Of a DNA stretch of 64,000 nt, positions 3,522-25,243 are shown piece by piece. Origin of the DNA: a bacterium (GTDB taxonomy: Bacteria > Bacteroidota > Ignavibacteria > Kapaibacteriales > UBA2268); contig JANJTB010000004.1 of assembly GCA_024711295.1 (NCBI GenBank), forward strand, positions 1 through 64,000, given 5' to 3'. The position numbers and the translations under genes were made by a program. How positions within the stretch are numbered: the first letter of the stretch is position 1; each line of letters begins with the position of its first letter. The notes beneath the pieces are model-generated. The model saw nothing but the letters and a program-made list of their open reading frames with translations, was not told the origin of the DNA and ran no database searches.

Positions 3522-5350
3522 CTTTCAATTATTCTTGAAACACCCTTTATACCTTTGATACTCATCAATTTAGCGATAATGGCATTGAGCTCGGTTTTTT
3601 TGCGCACTTTGATTGTCACAATACCTTCGAAAAAAGCATCTGAAGTATCAAGATTAATTCTTCTGATAATTGATTTACCGATAGCTTCAGTAATTTCGAA
3701 AAGCATACGTTCCCGGTCTTCTCCTCTTATACGTATTTTTGAGTCAAATTCATCGCTCTCGAGGTTGGTATTATCAATGACTGGTATGTTGTTTTTGAAG
3801 TAATTATAAAGTTTTGAAATAGCTTTATGAGATACTACCATATCCATCCACTCGGGTTTAGGAGTGAATTTTCTGGAATAAATTATTTCAACCTGTTCTC
3901 CTGATTTAAGCTTATAATTCAAATCACAAACAACTCCATTTACCTTTCCGGAGATACAGTGCAGTCCAATTTCTTCGGATAATGAGAAAGCAAAATCAAT
4001 TAAGTTCGAGCCTTCAGGTAGAGTTATTGTTCTACCATCTTTACTGAACACTTTGAGTTCGCTGTCGAAAAGATTGACTTTTATGGCTTCCCATATAATT
4101 TGAGTAGCTTTTTCACCTTTCTCTTCGATAATATTTTGCATCCAATTTCCCCAATCTTCGATTTCTTTATCGGTAAAATTAAGGGCTCTTATTCTGCCAC
4201 TTCGTAGTGAAAATTTCGAAGCAAATCCTTCCTCAGCAATTTTCTCCATTTCCTCGGTGCGAATTATGATTTCAACTCTCTTTCCATCAGGTCCAAAAAG
4301 TTCAGTAACAAGTGATTTGAACCAATCCATTTTTGGTTTTGCAATATAGTCAACAAAGCTGATTGTATTAAACGCTGTTGCAAGAACGCCATGAGCTCTG
4401 TATGGTTCGTGTATATCGTTTGTATTTAAAATTATAACAACAGAATAGAAGTTATCAATATCATTAATTGACTTACCTTCATTGATCATTTTGAAAATTT
4501 CATATTCATGTTTGTGAACAATAGAGAGTGTATGCTTCAGGTTATGATTATTCAAACTGCTTTGAATGGTATCTGCAAATACTCTTATATAATCTATGAA
4601 ATCACGTCTTTTTTCGTTCAGTGCGGTTCTGATTGCTTCGTATGCTGCTTTGTCCGAGTAGTAAAATGAGCGATTTTCTAACTCCATTTTAATTCTCATC
4701 AACCCTAGACGATGTGTGATAGGTATATAGAAATTTAGTGTTTCTAAAGCAATTTCTCGCTGTTTATCAGTCTTTAAATAATGTAGGGTTCTTAGATTAT
4801 GTAGTCTATCAGCTAACTTAATCAATATTACTCTGATATCTCTTACAAGAGCAAGGAATAATTTTCGGTGTGTACCTGCTTTAAGTTTCTGTTTCAGGTT
4901 GATTTTTTCGATATGGCTAAGTGCAGCCCAATCTATTGTATCTCCATCAGAATTGATATTATCATTTGATATTTTGGTAACTGCCTGTACCATTTCGGCC
5001 ACATCACTACCAAATAAATGGCTTATTTCGGATTCTTCAACACTTTCTACATCCTCAATTGTATCGTGTAATAATGCAGCCGCAAGCGAAGCTGTATCAT
5101 GAATTGTGAACTCACGTAGTAAAATTAAGGTAACATTAAGCGGGTGTGTATAGTAGGGATAACCTGACTTTCTTTTAGTTTCGTGATGCTTTTCGTAACA
5201 AAACTGGAATGCTTTTGTAATAAGTTCTTTATCTACAGTACTATCATACTTGTCTATTTCATTTAAAAGAAACTGTAAATCACTATCAGGGTCCATGCCA
5301 AAAGGACTATCTTCATCATATTCTAAATCAAACTCGAATAAAAGCTCCAT
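3518..5350 (-). CDS. Long RSH (RelA/SpoT homologue): intact ppGpp hydrolase, degenerate synthetase domain
   Basis: A 610-residue protein with the RSH domain order: HD hydrolase (about 40-200), synthetase (about 230-380), TGS (about 430-500) and ACT (about 535-610). Hydrolase residues are all visible: RKSGYPYYTHP (H69), HD at 95-96, ED at 99-100 and KLADRLHN (D181). The synthetase half is eroded. The GRxKHxYSI loop keeps only KH (280-281). The catalytic DLxAxR strand reads IDNFYSVV, with Asn300 where Asp is needed. The PKxNGYQSLHT loop is PKMDWFKSLVT. The glutamate of the EVQIRT motif remains (E360, EIIIRT). I infer a SpoT-like alarmone hydrolase with weak or no synthesis. The length is shorter than the usual 700-740 residues. 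The gene is transcribed alone, divergent from the LON-folP pair. Confidence 0.85.
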   Translation of the reverse strand: MELLFEFDLEYDEDSPFGMDPDSDLQFLLNEIDKYDSTVDKELITKAFQFCYEKHHETKRKSGYPYYTHPLNVTLILLREFTIHDTASLAAALLHDTIEDVESVEESEISHLFGSDVAEMVQAVTKISNDNINSDGDTIDWAALSHIEKINLKQKLKAGTHRKLFLALVRDIRVILIKLADRLHNLRTLHYLKTDKQREIALETLNFYIPITHRLGLMRIKMELENRSFYYSDKAAYEAIRTALNEKRRDFIDYIRVFADTIQSSLNNHNLKHTLSIVHKHEYEIFKMINEGKSINDIDNFYSVVIILNTNDIHEPYRAHGVLATAFNTISFVDYIAKPKMDWFKSLVTELFGPDGKRVEIIIRTEEMEKIAEEGFASKFSLRSGRIRALNFTDKEIEDWGNWMQNIIEEKGEKATQIIWEAIKVNLFDSELKVFSKDGRTITLPEGSNLIDFAFSLSEEIGLHCISGKVNGVVCDLNYKLKSGEQVEIIYSRKFTPKPEWMDMVVSHKAISKLYNYFKNNIPVIDNTNLESDEFDSKIRIRGEDRERMLFEITEAIGKSIIRRINLDTSDAFFEGIVTIKVRKKTELNAIIAKLMSIKGIKGVSRIIES

Positions 5351-5522
5351 GCTGCGTTTTCTCTGATTAAGTTTACTGTATTCTACCTACAGGATAAAAA
5401 ATATCTTCATAAATTGAGATAAAAAATATATTTTTTGAAAATTATTGATTTTACAGATACAATATAAAAATAATATATACTAATTCAAAATTAAAATATT
5501 GTTAAATCAATGAATGTTCATA

Positions 5523-5555
5523 TTTTGAGATAAAAAAATATGTAGCATCTCAAAA
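5523..5555. repeat. 9-bp inverted repeat in the RSH / LON-domain divergent promoter region
   Basis: TTTTGAGAT (5523-5531) and ATCTCAAAA (5547-5555) are perfect inverted arms around a 15-base AT-rich loop. A second copy of the left arm with its A-rich tail (TTGAGATAAAAAATAT) lies at 5414-5429. Both sit in the 284-bp region between divergent genes, so an operator or attenuator is possible. There is no T tract after the arm. Confidence 0.4.
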
Positions 5556-5590
5556 ATGGCACAATTTTTTTTATTACGAATAAATAATGT

Positions 5591-5598
5591 TACTTTTG
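5591..5598 (+). promoter_or_regulatory. Candidate -7 element (TACTTTTG) for the LON-domain/folP genes
   Basis: The octamer fits TAnnTTTG and lies 37 bases before the ATG at 5635. No TTG is present at the proper distance upstream, so only half of the promoter consensus is met. Confidence 0.4.
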
Positions 5599-5634
5599 TT
5601 TATAAATGATATTATTACGAAGAGCAAGTGATTT

Positions 5635-6267
5635 ATGATAAAGATAGGTATATTTCCGCTGAATGTGATACTGTTCCCTGAGTCTGTTTACCCCTTACAT
5701 ATATTTGAGGAGAGGTATAAGCAATTGATAAATGAATGTTATACTAATAACCTTGAATTTGGAATTAATTACATTTCACCTGCAGGAATTAGTGAAGTTG
5801 GATGCAGTGCAATGGTAAGTCAAGTCTTAAAAAAATATCCTGATGGGAAAATGGATATTATCGTGCAGGGTATATCAAGATACAGGCTAAATCGAATTTG
5901 GCAGGGACAGGAATTATATTACAGTGCTGATGTTGAACCATTTGCAGACGATGACTACGGTGTTGATTTTGGATTAATGGAGGAAGCTGTAAGATTGTAT
6001 AATAAAATAGCCGAAGGTATTACTTCACTTAAAATTGACAAAATTGACCCCAACAATATTGATGCTAAGTTTCCATCGTTTTTAATTGCCCAAAAAGCAG
6101 GGCTGACTCCTGAGCAAAAACAATCATTACTAGAGATTCGTAGCGAAAATCTAAGATTGGAAACCCTGTCAAAACATCTTAGAAAGGTACAGCCACTAAT
6201 AAAACGTGCAGAGGTAATATCAAATATAATAAAAAATGACGGATACCTTAAAAATGATATCATTTGA
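5635..6267 (+). CDS. Stand-alone LON N-terminal (substrate-binding) domain protein
   Basis: A 210-residue protein consisting of a LON N-domain (PF02190 type) and no ATPase or protease part. The family opening is clear: IGIFPLNVILFPESVYPLHIFEERYKQ. It is followed by the GxEFGI-like strand NNLEFGINYI and the conserved DIIVQGISRYRL strand. The C-terminal half is a helical bundle. Stand-alone LON-domain proteins are common in Bacteroidota and are thought to bind peptides or unfolded protein, but their role is not well defined. Its 3' end overlaps folP by 32 bases if folP starts at 6236, which suggests an operon with translational coupling. Confidence 0.85.
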   Translation: MIKIGIFPLNVILFPESVYPLHIFEERYKQLINECYTNNLEFGINYISPAGISEVGCSAMVSQVLKKYPDGKMDIIVQGISRYRLNRIWQGQELYYSADVEPFADDDYGVDFGLMEEAVRLYNKIAEGITSLKIDKIDPNNIDAKFPSFLIAQKAGLTPEQKQSLLEIRSENLRLETLSKHLRKVQPLIKRAEVISNIIKNDGYLKNDII

Positions 6268-19669: not shown

Positions 19670-19771
19670 CTAGATTTTGGCTATTTTCTTGACAAATCGG
19701 TCTGTTTGAGTTGTTACATTTAAGAAATAGACACCTTTACTAAGATCGGCAGTTAGATTTCTGTAGTTAAT
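19670..19771 (-). pseudogene. Remnant of a T9SS-sorted protein gene (last 33 codons of a C-terminal sorting domain)
   Basis: On the minus strand, codons between the in-frame stop at 19772-19774 and the stop at 19670-19672 translate to a typical end of a Por sorting domain: INYRNLTADLSKGVYFLNV, then TTQTDRFVKKIAKI and a stop. LSKGVYFLNV and the basic tail match the T9SS domains of the other cargo genes in the window. No open frame continues upstream, so the rest of the gene is gone. The break lies at a small inverted repeat (CTGTAG-TTAAT-CTACAG, 19761-19777). The old terminator (19625-19651) is still in place. Confidence 0.75.
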
Positions 19772-19871
19772 CTACAGTAATTTAAGATAATTTTACAAAA
19801 GTATTCTTTACTATTCGACATACAAGTAATCAATTTCAAAATCGTTATTATCTAATTATTCTGTAATAAAT

Positions 19872-19886: not shown

Positions 19887-20822
19887 ATGAAATTATTGAT
19901 TAAATTGTTCCTATTGTTTTTTTTAGTTACTCTTTTAAGTTGTAACAATAAGCAAGATAAAAACCAATCAACAGATGACTCAAAATTAAAAGTAACTTCA
20001 ACAACCGGTATGATAACTGATGCTTTGCAATTTATTGCAGGTGATAAAATTGAATTGGTTGCTACTATTTGTGGTCCTGGAATTGACCCACATTCATACA
20101 TACCTACAACCAGAGATATTGTCAATATCGAAAAATCTGATCTGATAATTTACAATGGATTAAACCTAGAAGCAAAAATGGGTGATATTTTTGCAAAGTT
20201 AGACAAGAAAAAAGCTTATGCCATTGGCGAAGCTATTCCGCAAGAACAATTGATAAATAATTCAGAAAAGTCAGATATTTTAGATTATGATCCTCATGTA
20301 TGGAACGATCCAATGTTATGGCTTTTTTCTTTGAATATGCTGATTAATGTTTTAGTCGAAAAAGATTCTGCTAATGCAGAACATTACAAGACTAAGGGAG
20401 CAGAATATATTGAACAGATAAAAGATGCTTACAACTATGCAAAATCGAAATTTGACATCATTCCTCCGAACCAAAGAGTACTCATTAGTGAACATGATGC
20501 ATTTCAATATTTTGCCAAAGCATACGGATTCCAAGTTCGTTCGATACTTGGTATGAACACAGATACAGAAGCCGGAGTAAAAACAATACAGGAATTGACA
20601 AACTACATCGTTGACAATAAAATAAAAGCAGTATTTGCTGAGACCATTATTAATCATAAAGGAATACAGGCATTGGTTAATTCGGCAAAGAACAGAAAGT
20701 GGGAACTCAAGATTGCAGATAAACCTCTATATTCTGATGCTTTGGGGCAAAAACCGCCGACCGATACATTTGTTGGGATAATAAAATATAATGCTGATGT
20801 TTTATATGATGTATTAAAGTAA
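19887..20822 (+). CDS. Metal ABC transporter substrate-binding lipoprotein (ZnuA/TroA/MntC family)
   Basis: A 311-residue cluster A-I solute-binding protein. The signal peptide ends in the lipobox VTLLSC, with the lipidated cysteine at residue 19. Metal ligands can be placed: PGIDPHSYIP (first His), the DYDPHVWNDP loop (second His), LISEHDAFQYFAKAYGF (third ligand, His or Glu) and KPLYSDALG (final Asp). The mobile histidine-rich loop of zinc-specific ZnuA is absent, which favours manganese or iron over zinc, but this is an inference. It is the first gene of the operon with the ATPase, two permeases, a decarboxylase and a membrane protein; the ATPase starts six bases after it. Confidence 0.9.
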   Translation: MKLLIKLFLLFFLVTLLSCNNKQDKNQSTDDSKLKVTSTTGMITDALQFIAGDKIELVATICGPGIDPHSYIPTTRDIVNIEKSDLIIYNGLNLEAKMGDIFAKLDKKKAYAIGEAIPQEQLINNSEKSDILDYDPHVWNDPMLWLFSLNMLINVLVEKDSANAEHYKTKGAEYIEQIKDAYNYAKSKFDIIPPNQRVLISEHDAFQYFAKAYGFQVRSILGMNTDTEAGVKTIQELTNYIVDNKIKAVFAETIINHKGIQALVNSAKNRKWELKIADKPLYSDALGQKPPTDTFVGIIKYNADVLYDVLK

Positions 20823-20828
20823 AATATT

Positions 20829-21569
20829 ATGAATGAACTAGCTCTTGAAATCAACGATTTAACGGTTGCATACAGAGAAAAACCAGTCCTTTGGGATATT
20901 GATCTTAACGTTCCAAAAGGAGTTATGATGGCTATAGTCGGACCAAATGGTGCCGGTAAAAGCACACTAATAAAATCTGCCCTTGGGCTTGTTAAACCTG
21001 TAGCGGGTGACGTTAAAATCTTTGGAACAGATTATATAACACAAAGAAAGAAAGTTGCTTACGTGCCTCAACGCACTTCAGTTGATTGGGATTTTCCTAC
21101 AACAGTTCTTGATGTTGTAATGATGGGAACTTATGGTAAACTTGGTTGGTTCAGAAGGCCCGGAATAAAAGAAAAGTCGGCAGCTTTAGATGCTTTGCAG
21201 CGGGTAGGAATGGATAGTTTTGCTGCCAGACAGATAAGTGAACTTAGTGGTGGACAACAACAAAGGACATTTTTGGCAAGAGCCTTGGTTCAGGATGCTG
21301 AAATATATTTTTTAGATGAACCTTTTGCCGGTGTTGATACTAAGACTGAAAAGCATATTGTAAATATTTTGAAAGAGTTGAAATCATCCGGAAAAACAAT
21401 AATAGCTGTTCACCACGAACTTATGACTGTAAAGGAGTATTTTGACTATATAGCTTTAATTAATGTTAAACTTGTAAATTCAGGGAAAGTTTCAGAAATA
21501 TTTAATGCTGAAAACATTAAATTAACTTATGGTGGACACTCGAATATTTGGGAAACTAACAAGTTTTAA
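20829..21569 (+). CDS. Metal ABC transporter ATP-binding protein (TroB/MntB/ZnuC type)
   Basis: A 246-residue ABC ATPase. Walker A is GPNGAGKST (38-46), the Q-loop lies in VAYVPQRTSVDWDFP, the signature is LSGGQQQR, Walker B with the D-loop is IYFLDEPFAGVD, and the switch histidine is AVHHE. The VDWDFPTTVLDVVMMG segment is typical for metal-type importers. It lies between the binding protein (six-base gap) and the first permease (five-base gap). Confidence 0.94.
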   Translation: MNELALEINDLTVAYREKPVLWDIDLNVPKGVMMAIVGPNGAGKSTLIKSALGLVKPVAGDVKIFGTDYITQRKKVAYVPQRTSVDWDFPTTVLDVVMMGTYGKLGWFRRPGIKEKSAALDALQRVGMDSFAARQISELSGGQQQRTFLARALVQDAEIYFLDEPFAGVDTKTEKHIVNILKELKSSGKTIIAVHHELMTVKEYFDYIALINVKLVNSGKVSEIFNAENIKLTYGGHSNIWETNKF

Positions 21570-21574
21570 TCATT

Positions 21575-22720
21575 ATGGAAGATATTATTAAACTCCTTTT
21601 AACTGATTATACTCTTAGGAATGTCGCTATTGGTGCCTCAATACTAGGATTAGTAAGCGGCAGCCTTGGTACATTTGCATTTTTAAGAAAAGAAAGTTTG
21701 ATGGGTGACGTTGTTGCTCACTCCTCATTACTTGGAATAACACTTATTTTCATTCTGACATATTTGTTAACCGGAATGGGACTGAAAAATGAGCCAATGC
21801 TAATGCTTGGTGCTGTAATAAGTGGGATTATAGCAATGATTTTTGTTTCAAAAATCACAAGTGACTCAAGAATAAAAAGTGACAGTGCAATGGGTATTAT
21901 TCTTGCCATTTTTTTTGGTGGCGGAATGTTCTTACTTACAATGATACAACAAAGTAATATTGAAAATAAGGCAGGCTTATCGTCATACCTGTTCGGATCT
22001 GCAGCAACTATTTCACATCAAAACGTTTGGATGATGAGTGTTCTTGGATTCATAGCTGTTTTATTAATGTTTATCTTTTGGAAGGAATTCAAAGTTCATA
22101 CTTTTGATCCGGATTTCGGTGAAACTATAGGTGTAAATAGAAAAAATACAAACTTATTAATAATTTCAGTTATTGTAATTGCAATAGTTATCGGACTTCA
22201 GGCAGTAGGAGTAATACTTATGGTTGCGCTAATTGTAGCACCACCTTCGGCTGCAAGGCAATGGACAAATAATTTAAAAATTATGACGATAATTTCAGCA
22301 ATTATCGGACTTGTATCCGGACTTATAGGTGCAATTGCATCCAGCTTAGTTTCAAATTTACCCACAGGACCTACCATAGTGTTAGTTGCGACTTTTATTT
22401 TCATTATTTCTGTGCTTTTTTCTCCTAAGCGTGGAATAATTTCAGAGTTGATAAGAAAATATAAAGATAAACGAAGAATTTTGATTTCTCTGGCACTATC
22501 AGATATGTATTACCTCGAAATGAATCATGATGATAGAATGAGTTTTGGTCATTCATCAAAAGTAATTGACAAGATGAATCCTATTAATTATAATATTCAA
22601 AAATCACTTACCATAATGAAAAGTGAAGGATTGGTAAACGAAGTTGCAAAAGACAATTGGAAATTGACAGATAAAGGGATTGACAGGGCAAAAATGATTC
22701 AACAGGAAAAGGGTAATTAA
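21575..22720 (+). CDS. Metal ABC transporter permease with C-terminal winged-helix (DtxR-like) domain, first copy
   Basis: A 381-residue membrane protein. Residues 1 to about 288 are the ABC-3 permease with eight or nine helices and family motifs (GSLGTFAFLRKESLMGDVVAHSSLLG, QAVGVILMVALIVAPPSAARQ). After FSPKRGIISELIRKYKDKRR comes an 80-residue soluble tail: RILISLALSDMYYLEMNHDD, then INYNIQKSLTIMKSEGLV and a WKLTDKGIDRAKM wing. This is a winged-helix layout like the N-terminal part of DtxR/MntR repressors. A comparable fusion is YtgCR of Chlamydia, where the tail is cut off and acts as a metal-responsive repressor. Whether that happens here is unknown. The second permease starts two bases after this gene. 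Confidence 0.85.
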   Translation: MEDIIKLLLTDYTLRNVAIGASILGLVSGSLGTFAFLRKESLMGDVVAHSSLLGITLIFILTYLLTGMGLKNEPMLMLGAVISGIIAMIFVSKITSDSRIKSDSAMGIILAIFFGGGMFLLTMIQQSNIENKAGLSSYLFGSAATISHQNVWMMSVLGFIAVLLMFIFWKEFKVHTFDPDFGETIGVNRKNTNLLIISVIVIAIVIGLQAVGVILMVALIVAPPSAARQWTNNLKIMTIISAIIGLVSGLIGAIASSLVSNLPTGPTIVLVATFIFIISVLFSPKRGIISELIRKYKDKRRILISLALSDMYYLEMNHDDRMSFGHSSKVIDKMNPINYNIQKSLTIMKSEGLVNEVAKDNWKLTDKGIDRAKMIQQEKGN

Positions 22721-22722
22721 AG

Positions 22723-23817
22723 ATGGTTGAGTTTAATATTATTCTGATTAGTTCTTTTACTGCTGTTTCTTGTGCTATCGCAGGAGTCTTTCTGATTCTC
22801 AGAAGAATGTCTTTGATGAGCGATGCTATAAGTCATGCCGTATTACCGGGAATAATTGTTGCATTTTTACTTGTCGAAGACCGTACTTCACCATTACTGA
22901 TTTTTGGAGCTGCACTTAGCGGACTTATTTTAGTGTATCTTACTGAATTAATCCACAAGACTAAACTTGTTAAAGAAGATGCTGCAGTAGGGCTCGTTTT
23001 CCCAGCAATGTTTTCTTTCGGTGTAATTTTGATAACTCAGTATTTATCGAGTGTTCACTTTCACGAACATTCAGTCCTGGTCGGAGATATTAACTTATCT
23101 GCCATTAATTTGATTGATATATTTGGTTTTTCACTTCCAAAAGCAATTCCCATTTTGAGTGTTGTTTTATTGCTAAATATAATCTTTATTTCAATTTTTT
23201 TCAAAGAATTGAAATTGACTACCTTCGACGCTGGATTAGCTGCTGCATTTGGTTTTAGTCCTGTGTTATTGCATTATTTATTTATGAGTTTAATTTCAAT
23301 CACCGCAGTTGCATCATTCGATACAGCCGGTTCGATTCTGGTCATTGCGCTTATGATTGCTCCTGCAGCGTCTGCTTATTTATTGACCAATAATCTGACA
23401 TTGATGTTTTTAATTTCTGGCATAATTGGAATAGTATCTTCAGTTTTGGGTTTTTATTTCTCATTTTGGTTAAATTCTACACCCTCCGGTGGTATAGCGG
23501 TAATAACCGGTTTAATATTTCTATTAACATATTTATTTTCACCTAAGTATGGATTGATAATTAAATCATTAAAACAAAAACGACAAAGAGAAGAATTTTA
23601 TATTAAAGTTCTTATCATGCATATTCTTAACCACCAAAATACAGAAATAGCTGAAATTGAAAATCAAAAGTCAGGTATTTATCACCATTTGAAATGGTCG
23701 GGTGAACGTGCTGAAAAAGTTATTGATTACTGCTTAAAGAATAATTACATATTTGAAAATCATGGAATTTTGAGTGTAAGTGAATCAGGTAAACAGTTTT
23801 TAAATAATAGGGATTAA
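22723..23817 (+). CDS. Metal ABC transporter permease with C-terminal winged-helix domain, second copy
   Basis: A 364-residue ABC-3 permease, TroD-like, with about eight helices in residues 1-285 (FLILRRMSLMSDAISHAVLPG, DTAGSILVIALMIAPAASAYLL, FSPKYGLIIKSLKQKRQRE). The 75-residue tail again looks like a winged helix: YIKVLIMHILNHQ, IYHHLKWSGERAEKVIDYCLKNN, and ILSVSESGKQFL. The two tails are related in layout rather than in close sequence. Both permeases would form the membrane heterodimer of a metal importer. The start is ATG at 22723, two bases after the preceding stop. Confidence 0.85.
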   Translation: MVEFNIILISSFTAVSCAIAGVFLILRRMSLMSDAISHAVLPGIIVAFLLVEDRTSPLLIFGAALSGLILVYLTELIHKTKLVKEDAAVGLVFPAMFSFGVILITQYLSSVHFHEHSVLVGDINLSAINLIDIFGFSLPKAIPILSVVLLLNIIFISIFFKELKLTTFDAGLAAAFGFSPVLLHYLFMSLISITAVASFDTAGSILVIALMIAPAASAYLLTNNLTLMFLISGIIGIVSSVLGFYFSFWLNSTPSGGIAVITGLIFLLTYLFSPKYGLIIKSLKQKRQREEFYIKVLIMHILNHQNTEIAEIENQKSGIYHHLKWSGERAEKVIDYCLKNNYIFENHGILSVSESGKQFLNNRD

Positions 23818-23824
23818 CATAATT

Positions 23825-25243
23825 GTGAATAGTGAAGAATTCAGAAAGTATGGCAAAGAGTTGATTGACTTTGTTGCTGAATATATGGAAACTAATGAAA
23901 AATATAGTGTTAAATCAACTGTAGTTCCCGGTGATATTTTTTCTCAGTTACCTTCCGTCCCACCTGATAATCCTGAAAGTTTTGAAACAATCATCAAAGA
24001 TTTTCATGATTTAATTATTCCTGGTATTACTCATTGGCAAAGTCCGAATTTTTATGCTTATTTCAGTTCTAATAACAGCTACGAATCAATATTAGGTGAA
24101 TTGCTTAGCTCTGCATTGGGAGTACATGCTTTTTCGTGGGAAACATCACCTGCTGCTACAGAACTAGAAGAGATGATGATGATTTGGTTACGTGATATGA
24201 TTTCTTTACCTAATCAGTTTGTTGGGGTTATTCAGGATACAGCATCGACTTCAACCTTGTGTTCATTACTTACAGCTCGAGAGCAAAAATTCAAAAAAAA
24301 TCCGCTCTTAAAAAGAAGTGAAATCAGTAATTTCAGGGTTTATTGTTCTACTGAAGCTCATTCATCAATTGAAAGAGCTGTTCATATTACAGGTATTGGT
24401 AAGCAAAATTTAGTAAAAATTGCTACAAATAGCGATTTTTCAATGAACATTGATTTATTGGAAAATTATTTAAATAATGATTTAAGAAACGGTTTTATTC
24501 CATTATGTGTTGTATCGGCTATTGGAACAACAGGTTCATTAGCTGTTGACCCGGTTGATAAGATCTCAGAAATTGCAAAAAAATATGATTTATGGCATCA
24601 TGTAGATGCTGCATACTCCGGCAATGCTATGATCTTGGATGAATACAAGTATCTTAGCAATTTAGTTAAAGATTGCGATACTTTTGTTTTTAATCCCCAC
24701 AAATGGCTTTTTATTAATTTTGATTTTTCTGCATATTTCGTTAGAGATAAAGAAGCACTCATCTCAACATTTGAAATATTACCAGAGTACCTTAAGACTT
24801 CGCAGGGTAATTCAGTAAATAATTACAGAGATTGGGGGATTCAGCTGGGTAGAAGATTCAGAGCACTAAAAGCATGGTTCGTTATTAGATCTTATGGAGT
24901 ATCAGGTCTTAAAGAGAAATTAAGATATCACAATTACCTTGCTGAATTAATATACAATAAGGTTGTTGAAAGTAATGACTTTGAATTAATGGCTCCTTTT
25001 TTTATGAATTTAGTTTGTTTCAGATTCAAACCTGATGATTTGTTAAATGAAGATGAAATAAATAGAATAAACGAAGATTTATTGCAAAAAATCAACAGTA
25101 CAGGGAAATTGTTTCTCACTAAAACTAAGCTTAACAATAAAACTACATTAAGAATGGTTACAGGTACTACGAGAGCTAATGAAAAGTATGTTTTGGATGC
25201 CTGGCATCATATTGAAAGATTAGCTCAACAATACAAAAACTGA
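23825..25243 (+). CDS. Group II PLP-dependent amino-acid decarboxylase (aromatic-L-amino-acid decarboxylase family)
   Basis: A 472-residue fold-type I decarboxylase. Key residues: TEAHSSIERA (His179 stacks on PLP), IGTTGSLAVDPVDKI, HHVDAAYSG (Asp261 holds the pyridine nitrogen) and NPHKWLF (Lys293 binds PLP). The N-terminus (FRKYGKELIDFVAEYM, and PGITHWQSPNFYAYF) is the DDC family opening. The substrate is likely tyrosine, DOPA, tryptophan or 5-hydroxytryptophan, giving an amine, but it cannot be fixed from sequence. It uses a GTG start, seven bases after the second permease, so it is cotranscribed with the metal transporter. A link between metal uptake and amine formation is not established. 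Confidence 0.88.
   Translation: MNSEEFRKYGKELIDFVAEYMETNEKYSVKSTVVPGDIFSQLPSVPPDNPESFETIIKDFHDLIIPGITHWQSPNFYAYFSSNNSYESILGELLSSALGVHAFSWETSPAATELEEMMMIWLRDMISLPNQFVGVIQDTASTSTLCSLLTAREQKFKKNPLLKRSEISNFRVYCSTEAHSSIERAVHITGIGKQNLVKIATNSDFSMNIDLLENYLNNDLRNGFIPLCVVSAIGTTGSLAVDPVDKISEIAKKYDLWHHVDAAYSGNAMILDEYKYLSNLVKDCDTFVFNPHKWLFINFDFSAYFVRDKEALISTFEILPEYLKTSQGNSVNNYRDWGIQLGRRFRALKAWFVIRSYGVSGLKEKLRYHNYLAELIYNKVVESNDFELMAPFFMNLVCFRFKPDDLLNEDEINRINEDLLQKINSTGKLFLTKTKLNNKTTLRMVTGTTRANEKYVLDAWHHIERLAQQYKN

Follow-up and report, generated by a model that had tools for sequence, protein, structure and literature searches.

How do bacteria stop the import of manganese, iron, or zinc at the level of the protein? 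For transporters in general, such a stop is less well known than gene repression (PMC10710835), and the locus described here raises the question in a particular form—both permeases of one metal importer end in an extra domain reminiscent of a metal-dependent repressor. In Chlamydia trachomatis, according to published reports, YtgR keeps the metal-coordinating residues of DtxR, is cleaved from YtgC, and binds its own promoter with Fe2+ as a repressor; orthologous permease-repressor fusions are reported there in 11 phyla (PMC5599777, PMC7755916). The original prediction took the two tails for a possible self-regulated repressor of this kind.

In the 64,000-nucleotide stretch of DNA that was analyzed (the window), open reading frames and Pfam matches outline a metal ABC importer operon at 19887-23817 on the forward strand, with genes for a binding protein, an ATPase, permease 1 (P1), and permease 2 (P2) (Table 1). 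One PF01297 match, one PF00005 match, and two PF00950 matches, the set expected of an ABC-3 importer, thus fall within a single operon. The P1 frame (21575-22720) encodes 381 residues and the P2 frame (22723-23817) encodes 364, which leaves about 100 residues beyond the membrane part in P1 and about 90 in P2. P1 has eight hydrophobic segments followed by a linker rich in lysine and arginine (net +6), and the P2 linker is likewise K/R-rich (net +4); these linkers suggest that both tails lie on the cytoplasmic side.

Table 1. Features of the importer operon, with positions in the window.
Feature	Position	Strand	Basis
ZnuA/TroA-family substrate-binding protein gene	19887..20822	+	PF01297, E=3.8e-62
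Importer ATPase gene	20829..21569	+	PF00005, E=1.6e-29
P1 membrane part, residues 1-283	21575..22423	+	PF00950 (ABC-3), residues 12-282, E=9.1e-65
P1 winged-helix tail, residues 284-381	22424..22717	+	Predicted model, profiles, fold comparison
P2 membrane part, residues 1-272	22723..23538	+	PF00950, residues 5-271, E=1.2e-48
P2 winged-helix tail, residues 273-364	23539..23814	+	Predicted model, fold comparison, profiles
Tail-1 candidate metal site: H318, D320, H326	22526..22552	+	Conservation
Tail-2 candidate metal site: H300, H304, E313, H322	23620..23688	+	Conservation

The two top NCBIfam models for the ATPase describe Mn/Fe importer ATPases, each scoring under its cut-off. Elsewhere in the same genome there is a second importer operon (L116:2490-4945, outside the window), whose binding protein is rich in His and whose permease has no tail; it probably serves zinc, and on that assumption, the operon studied here is more likely to import manganese or iron. 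No Fur gene was found in the window's genome. Directly 3' of the operon, at 23825-25243, stands a pyridoxal-phosphate decarboxylase gene (PF00282), whose position is kept in a genome of the same genus (G001); the two genomes share the order of all five genes.

Structure prediction, one of the checks proposed with the original prediction, bore out the claim that both permeases end in a winged helix. AlphaFold2, run with alignments of relatives, gave this fold for tail 1 (mean pLDDT 88.8, pTM 0.75) and for tail 2 (mean pLDDT 90.0, pTM 0.80), and the ABC-3 domain covers the membrane part only. Two sets of relatives, A3 and A4, hold 40 of 55 and 38 of 45 candidates, each together with the window sequence. 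Both modeled tails run in the order long helix, helix, recognition-type helix, two strands, and helix, with an extra short helix in tail 2; helix 1 (model residues 3-34 in tail 1 and 2-32 in tail 2) passes from the permease end into the domain. Foldseek returned DtxR and IdeR as the top matches of tail 2 (E 0.0045-0.0083) and winged helices of several families for tail 1 (best E 0.0067), with no match for either tail at E 0.001. When the Foldseek matches were re-scored with VIA-align, the E. coli DtxR-like structure 2h09 aligned with tail 1 over 87 residues (Z 11.0, rmsd 2.6) and with tail 2 over 82 (Z 10.8, rmsd 3.0); MarR, PadR, and CggR folds score equally well, so the fold identifies a winged helix and does not by itself single out DtxR.

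Kinship is clearer in profile comparisons, by which the tails are related to the DNA-binding half of DtxR/MntR and to each other, with a weaker DtxR link for tail 2 than for tail 1. The tail-1 profile first matches ScaR (E=0.0013) and SloR (0.01); the tail-2 profile matches a MarR protein (0.013) and MntR (0.037). HHalign, applied to the tail cores with the permease-derived linker removed, gave probabilities against standalone DtxR of 94.9% for tail 1 and 76.2% for tail 2, against DtxR-fused permeases of 96.3% and 77.0%, respectively, and between the two tails of 92.9%. Twenty column-shuffled controls for each of four comparisons (tail 1 with the fused permeases being left out) reached 2.0% at most; for the comparisons of each tail with standalone DtxR and of the tails with each other, the highest control was 1.4%. 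The predicted resemblance of the first tail to the N-terminal region of DtxR/MntR repressors thus holds at the profile level, although the likeness of the single sequence is weak. PF01325 has no match in either window tail; among 41 tail-1 rows two match at E<=1 (best 0.15), short of the curated cut-off, and the family is not among the 25 Pfam families listed for 39 tail-2 rows. Single tails give weak matches to the winged-helix Pfam families HTH_45, HemN_C, WH_AprA, and AAA_assoc_C. Searches of Pfam, NCBIfam, and the PDB with the single tail-1 sequence also returned Mrr_N and a phospholipase; we regard these as chance-like and superseded by the profiles.

What the tails lack is the other half of the repressor: PF02742, the DtxR dimerisation and metal-binding domain, is absent from both window permeases and from P1 and P2 of another two-tailed locus (L031). 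Like YtgCR, the importer joins an ABC metal permease to a C-terminal DtxR-related domain; however, its tails are without the DtxR metal/dimerisation domain and its ligands, both permeases are tailed, and the genome holds a standalone DtxR gene. Order- and phylum-level relatives (L006-L011, L123-L140) carry a complete DtxR part on P1 in the same type of operon. In L006 this P1 matches PF02742 (E=2e-23), and the other complete fusions were assigned by length and alignment; the complete part of L006-L011 has, with variations, the stretch HRLWE...H..AE..EH...DPH..PIP. These relatives resemble the window in operon type, in a homologous permease, and in a homologous winged helix, but differ in the presence of the DtxR metal domain, in the lack of histidine at positions 318 and 326, and in a short P2, which ends no more than 40 residues past the membrane part in all 17 readable cases. 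In contrast, P2 extends 91-108 residues past the membrane part beside a short-tailed P1 in 12 of 12 loci (L141-L152). Standalone regulators of the DtxR/MntR/IdeR/SloR/ScaR type share with the window tails the N-terminal winged helix; they differ in being soluble, in carrying PF02742, in their more positive charge, and, in the two tested (L111, L033), in having FeoA.

Permease fusions were also sought in related genomes, as had been suggested, and both architectures turned up in a survey of 296 genomes drawn from the phylum. At a threshold of E 5e-21, a P2 tail was found in 28 genomes, and the same 28 have a short-tailed P1 among the matches listed (in one, G267, a contig end truncates the P1 match); in 22 others, P1 bears a complete DtxR tail and P2-tail matches at this threshold are lacking, again among the matches listed, which for P1 extend to about E=3e-20. 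Beyond the 28, another 19 genomes give weaker matches to the P2 tail (E 2e-7 to 9e-4): four of them belong to the 22, where the match falls within the complete-fusion P1, and the only one inspected of the other 15, in G088, lies in a membrane-anchored DtxR gene rather than in a permease. Outside the 296-genome draw, one close relative (G026, locus L003) combines a short-tailed P1 with an untailed P2, so the tail pair is not indispensable. Some P2 tails lie in long open frames of up to 762 residues; we do not accept these as fusions, the one inspected (L118) being a P2 gene with upstream read-through.

Several neighboring arrangements deserve mention in their own right. An order-level relative (G055) combines within one operon (L115:2540-3253 and 4793-6193) a DtxR gene that stands alone and a complete-fusion permease, both recognized by eye. 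Two class-level relatives, G088 (L153:1144-2172) and G184 (L154:991-2019), encode a 342-residue protein that combines a single hydrophobic segment at its N terminus with a linker, a complete DtxR part, and FeoA, the Pfam check having been made on L153. Its linker (HPRKGLL or YPAKGII) resembles permease ends, and its gene stands after a standalone DtxR gene, followed in G088 by FeoB-like genes (by eye). The protein resembles a DtxR anchored in the membrane, which may be a relic of a permease fusion or a parallel to one. P2 tails of Flavobacteriaceae (e.g., L109:6943-7275) have a further conserved C-terminal stretch, about 25 residues long and with FFLFRG at its end, which is absent from the window.

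A wider search yielded at least 554 candidate loci, of which the best 80 (L031-L110) span nine named NCBI phyla; most are from Bacteroidota (54), followed by Chloroflexota (11), and two loci lack a phylum. P2 tails are present in 77 of the 77 uncut pairs (L046, L051, and L089, cut by contig ends, being excluded); since the query alignment included the tail and the loci were picked for likeness to it, this is not a frequency, and 28 versus 22 genomes is the fairer count. In a tree of 114 permease domains covering eight of the nine phyla (Krumholzibacteriota, L046, being left out), all 37 short-tailed P1 form one clade (SH-aLRT 100), and 35 short-tailed P2 together with the untailed P2 of L003 form another (SH-aLRT 100), which amounts to one tail loss among the P2 partners. 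The tree was made by a quick method without bootstrap, with long branches flagged and the branching order of the complete fusions unsettled. On the simplest history, a complete DtxR tail on one permease would have given way once, long ago, to a short tail on each of the two; here we infer the direction of change.

Both short tails bear conserved histidines, which, together with a glutamate in P2, we read as candidate metal ligands. Among 82 pairs, with rows mostly from Bacteroidota, P1 has His318 in 81, His326 in 82, and His323 in 70, and Asp or Asn is common at 320; in 81 tailed P2 rows, His300 is found in 79, His304 in 78, Glu313 in 81, His318 in 74, and His322 in 77. The window itself departs from most relatives at one histidine per tail (Ser at P1 position 323, Gly at P2 position 318) and retains three of the four common positions in P1 and four of the five in P2. 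After reduction at 70% identity, histidine remains at 318 in 26 and at 326 in 27 of 27 short P1 tails, versus none of 24 complete-fusion rows at the same alignment columns (23 genes, one appearing twice as L008 and L139 at the same place in G040); histidine lies within three columns of 318 and 326 in two and three of these 24 rows, respectively. The P2 set has no complete-fusion counterpart for such a comparison. Two histidines in P1, and four histidines plus the glutamate in P2, rank among the 12 tail columns of highest conservation (27 P1 and 24 tailed P2 sequences at 70% identity), although histidine accounts for just 5.7% and 6.9% of residues. In the models, the P1 positions fall between helices 1 and 2; P2 positions 300 and 304 lie at the end of helix 1, and 318 and 322 on helix 2. 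Two Dadabacteria rows (L039, L043) keep the P2 tail with three of its four histidines lost, so that two of the five positions remain. Between the window and G001, tail identity is 49% and 48%, and synonymous changes are saturated, leaving no dN/dS estimate.

Transcription of the operon need not depend on the tails. The original prediction was right that no regulator gene adjoins the operon; however, the absence of any separate regulator is ruled out genome-wide by a DtxR gene elsewhere in the genome (L111:2333-3031), complete in three Pfam domains. A gene with PF02742 occurs in 27 of the 28 two-tailed genomes, the window's included (G187 is the exception), with best-match open frames of 217-352 residues. 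Near the operon, a DtxR gene or piece was seen in at least 49 of the 80 two-tailed loci (the best of at least 554), on the opposite strand in 16, and within 100 bp on the same strand in at least 17 of the 80; these are lower bounds, since each locus was covered only as far as its 5 kb flanks or the end of its contig. With DtxR genes present both elsewhere in the genomes and near the operon, the operon would seem to have no need of the tails as its repressor.

The missing sensing half and the conserved histidines together suggest that the tails may serve as a metal brake rather than as a gene switch. We tentatively favor, at a little under an even chance, the proposal that the tails are a built-in brake on the importer—a case of trans-inhibition—with transcription left to a separate DtxR/MntR protein. 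One tail per permease would hang into the cytoplasm, the two would meet beneath the transporter, and each would bind imported metal through its own histidine cluster. When cytoplasmic metal is high, the metal-bound tails would lock the importer; such coupling is plausible because each tail continues the permease end as one helix. Some points go against a brake: each window tail is without one common histidine, L039 and L043 have lost three, and L003 is without tail 2. A parallel exists in MetNI and ModABC, where fused cytoplasmic domains mediate trans-inhibition (PMC10710835). In those importers, for which sensing has been shown, a fused domain pair binds the imported substrate and stops the cycle, as may hold for the one described here; however, their extra domains are on the ATPase and the window's tails are on the permeases, and the likeness is drawn from function rather than from sequence or fold.

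Closest to the original prediction is the possibility that the tails form a DNA-binding pair, membrane-anchored or cleaved off, that represses the operon when metal is plentiful, with the permease pair supplying dimerisation in place of the missing DtxR domain. The two tails do differ and do come as a pair, as predicted, and the permease pair could bring two distinct halves together. The winged helix itself, its relation to the N-terminal domains of DtxR proteins, the lack of an adjoining regulator gene, and the precedent of YtgR (PMC5599777, PMC7755916) all speak for DNA binding, as does the recognition-type helix, which is intact; however, its mean net charge is +0.7 and +0.8 in the tails versus +1.6 in standalone DtxR, and its DNA-facing positions 342 and 343 are variable. 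The whole tail-1 winged helix has a mean net charge of -0.3 in 27 short rows, whereas 24 rows of complete fusions give +3.0 (Mann-Whitney p 0.0004, rows treated without correction for kinship); for standalone DtxR, the N-terminal domain (78 residues, 45 rows) has a mean of +4.0. A further point in favor of DNA binding is the strongest palindrome upstream of the operon (CTGTAG-N5-CTACAG, 19761-19777), which is more frequent in the window than expected by chance, with two matches at up to one mismatch versus 0.02 expected in shuffles; genome-wide it has a single perfect copy and eight sites with up to one mismatch, versus four for a reversed control. It is absent from the same-genus locus (G001) with up to two mismatches allowed, no operator common to the two loci was found, and it overlaps the edge of a remnant, so we do not accept it as an operator, though it may yet be one; this counts, weakly, against self-repression of the operon. 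The remnant lies in the gap before the operon (19670-19765, reverse strand), reads YRNLTADLSKGVYFLNVTTQTDRFVKKIAKI, and resembles the terminal part of a sorting domain for type IX secretion. With no DtxR metal domain, a tail-1 charge near zero, and a separate DtxR gene in 27 of 28 genomes, a self-regulated repressor like YtgCR is not upheld, and we consider a DNA-binding pair of any form unlikely.

Other roles would keep the tails away from DNA. They may bind metal without gating, passing it to cytoplasmic acceptors such as DtxR/MntR or buffering it; the conserved His/Glu positions and the co-occurrence with DtxR genes fit such a role, which we rate as improbable but worth entertaining, because in the models the unbroken helix from the permease end suggests coupling rather than delivery. 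Rather less probable is a role of the tails in the assembly or stability of the permease pair, in which the histidines and glutamate would serve the fold or an interface with no part in sensing metal. Their pairing within a single clade is in line with this, as are Trp362, Trp325, and other core positions that are equally conserved, and the tolerance of one lost histidine per tail in the window and its genus and of three in P2 of the two Dadabacteria rows; yet a near-invariant histidine in a helix-to-helix loop (P1) and i/i+4 pairs (P2) would, in our judgement, be unusual for core packing, and complete fusions have the same fold without the P1 pair. That the tails are functionless, decaying remnants of a DtxR fusion is very hard to credit. 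The DtxR metal domain is indeed gone, and the tails are less similar to those of G001 than the permease parts are (72% and 82% identity), but the near-invariant residues, the single origin on the tree, and the P2 tail in all 77 uncut pairs (from the best 80 of at least 554 loci, selected for likeness to a tailed query) speak against decay.

Fusions of permease and repressor are known; on tailed or paired permeases of the present kind we found nothing in the openly licensed literature beyond the work on YtgCR. It is possible, if on balance somewhat doubtful, that an ancient importer lineage turned a fused repressor into paired metal-sensing brakes, with the DNA-binding fold retained on each permease, the metal domain of the repressor dispensed with, a histidine site gained on each, and a separate DtxR governing transcription. 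The family is widespread and occurs in cultivated Flavobacteriaceae, and is therefore open to testing. If the proposal is true, the DtxR fold would have been put to a new use—a domain that once bound DNA would now act allosterically as the metal brake of an ABC importer—and the family would offer a testable case of a regulator shifted from the control of genes to the control of transport.
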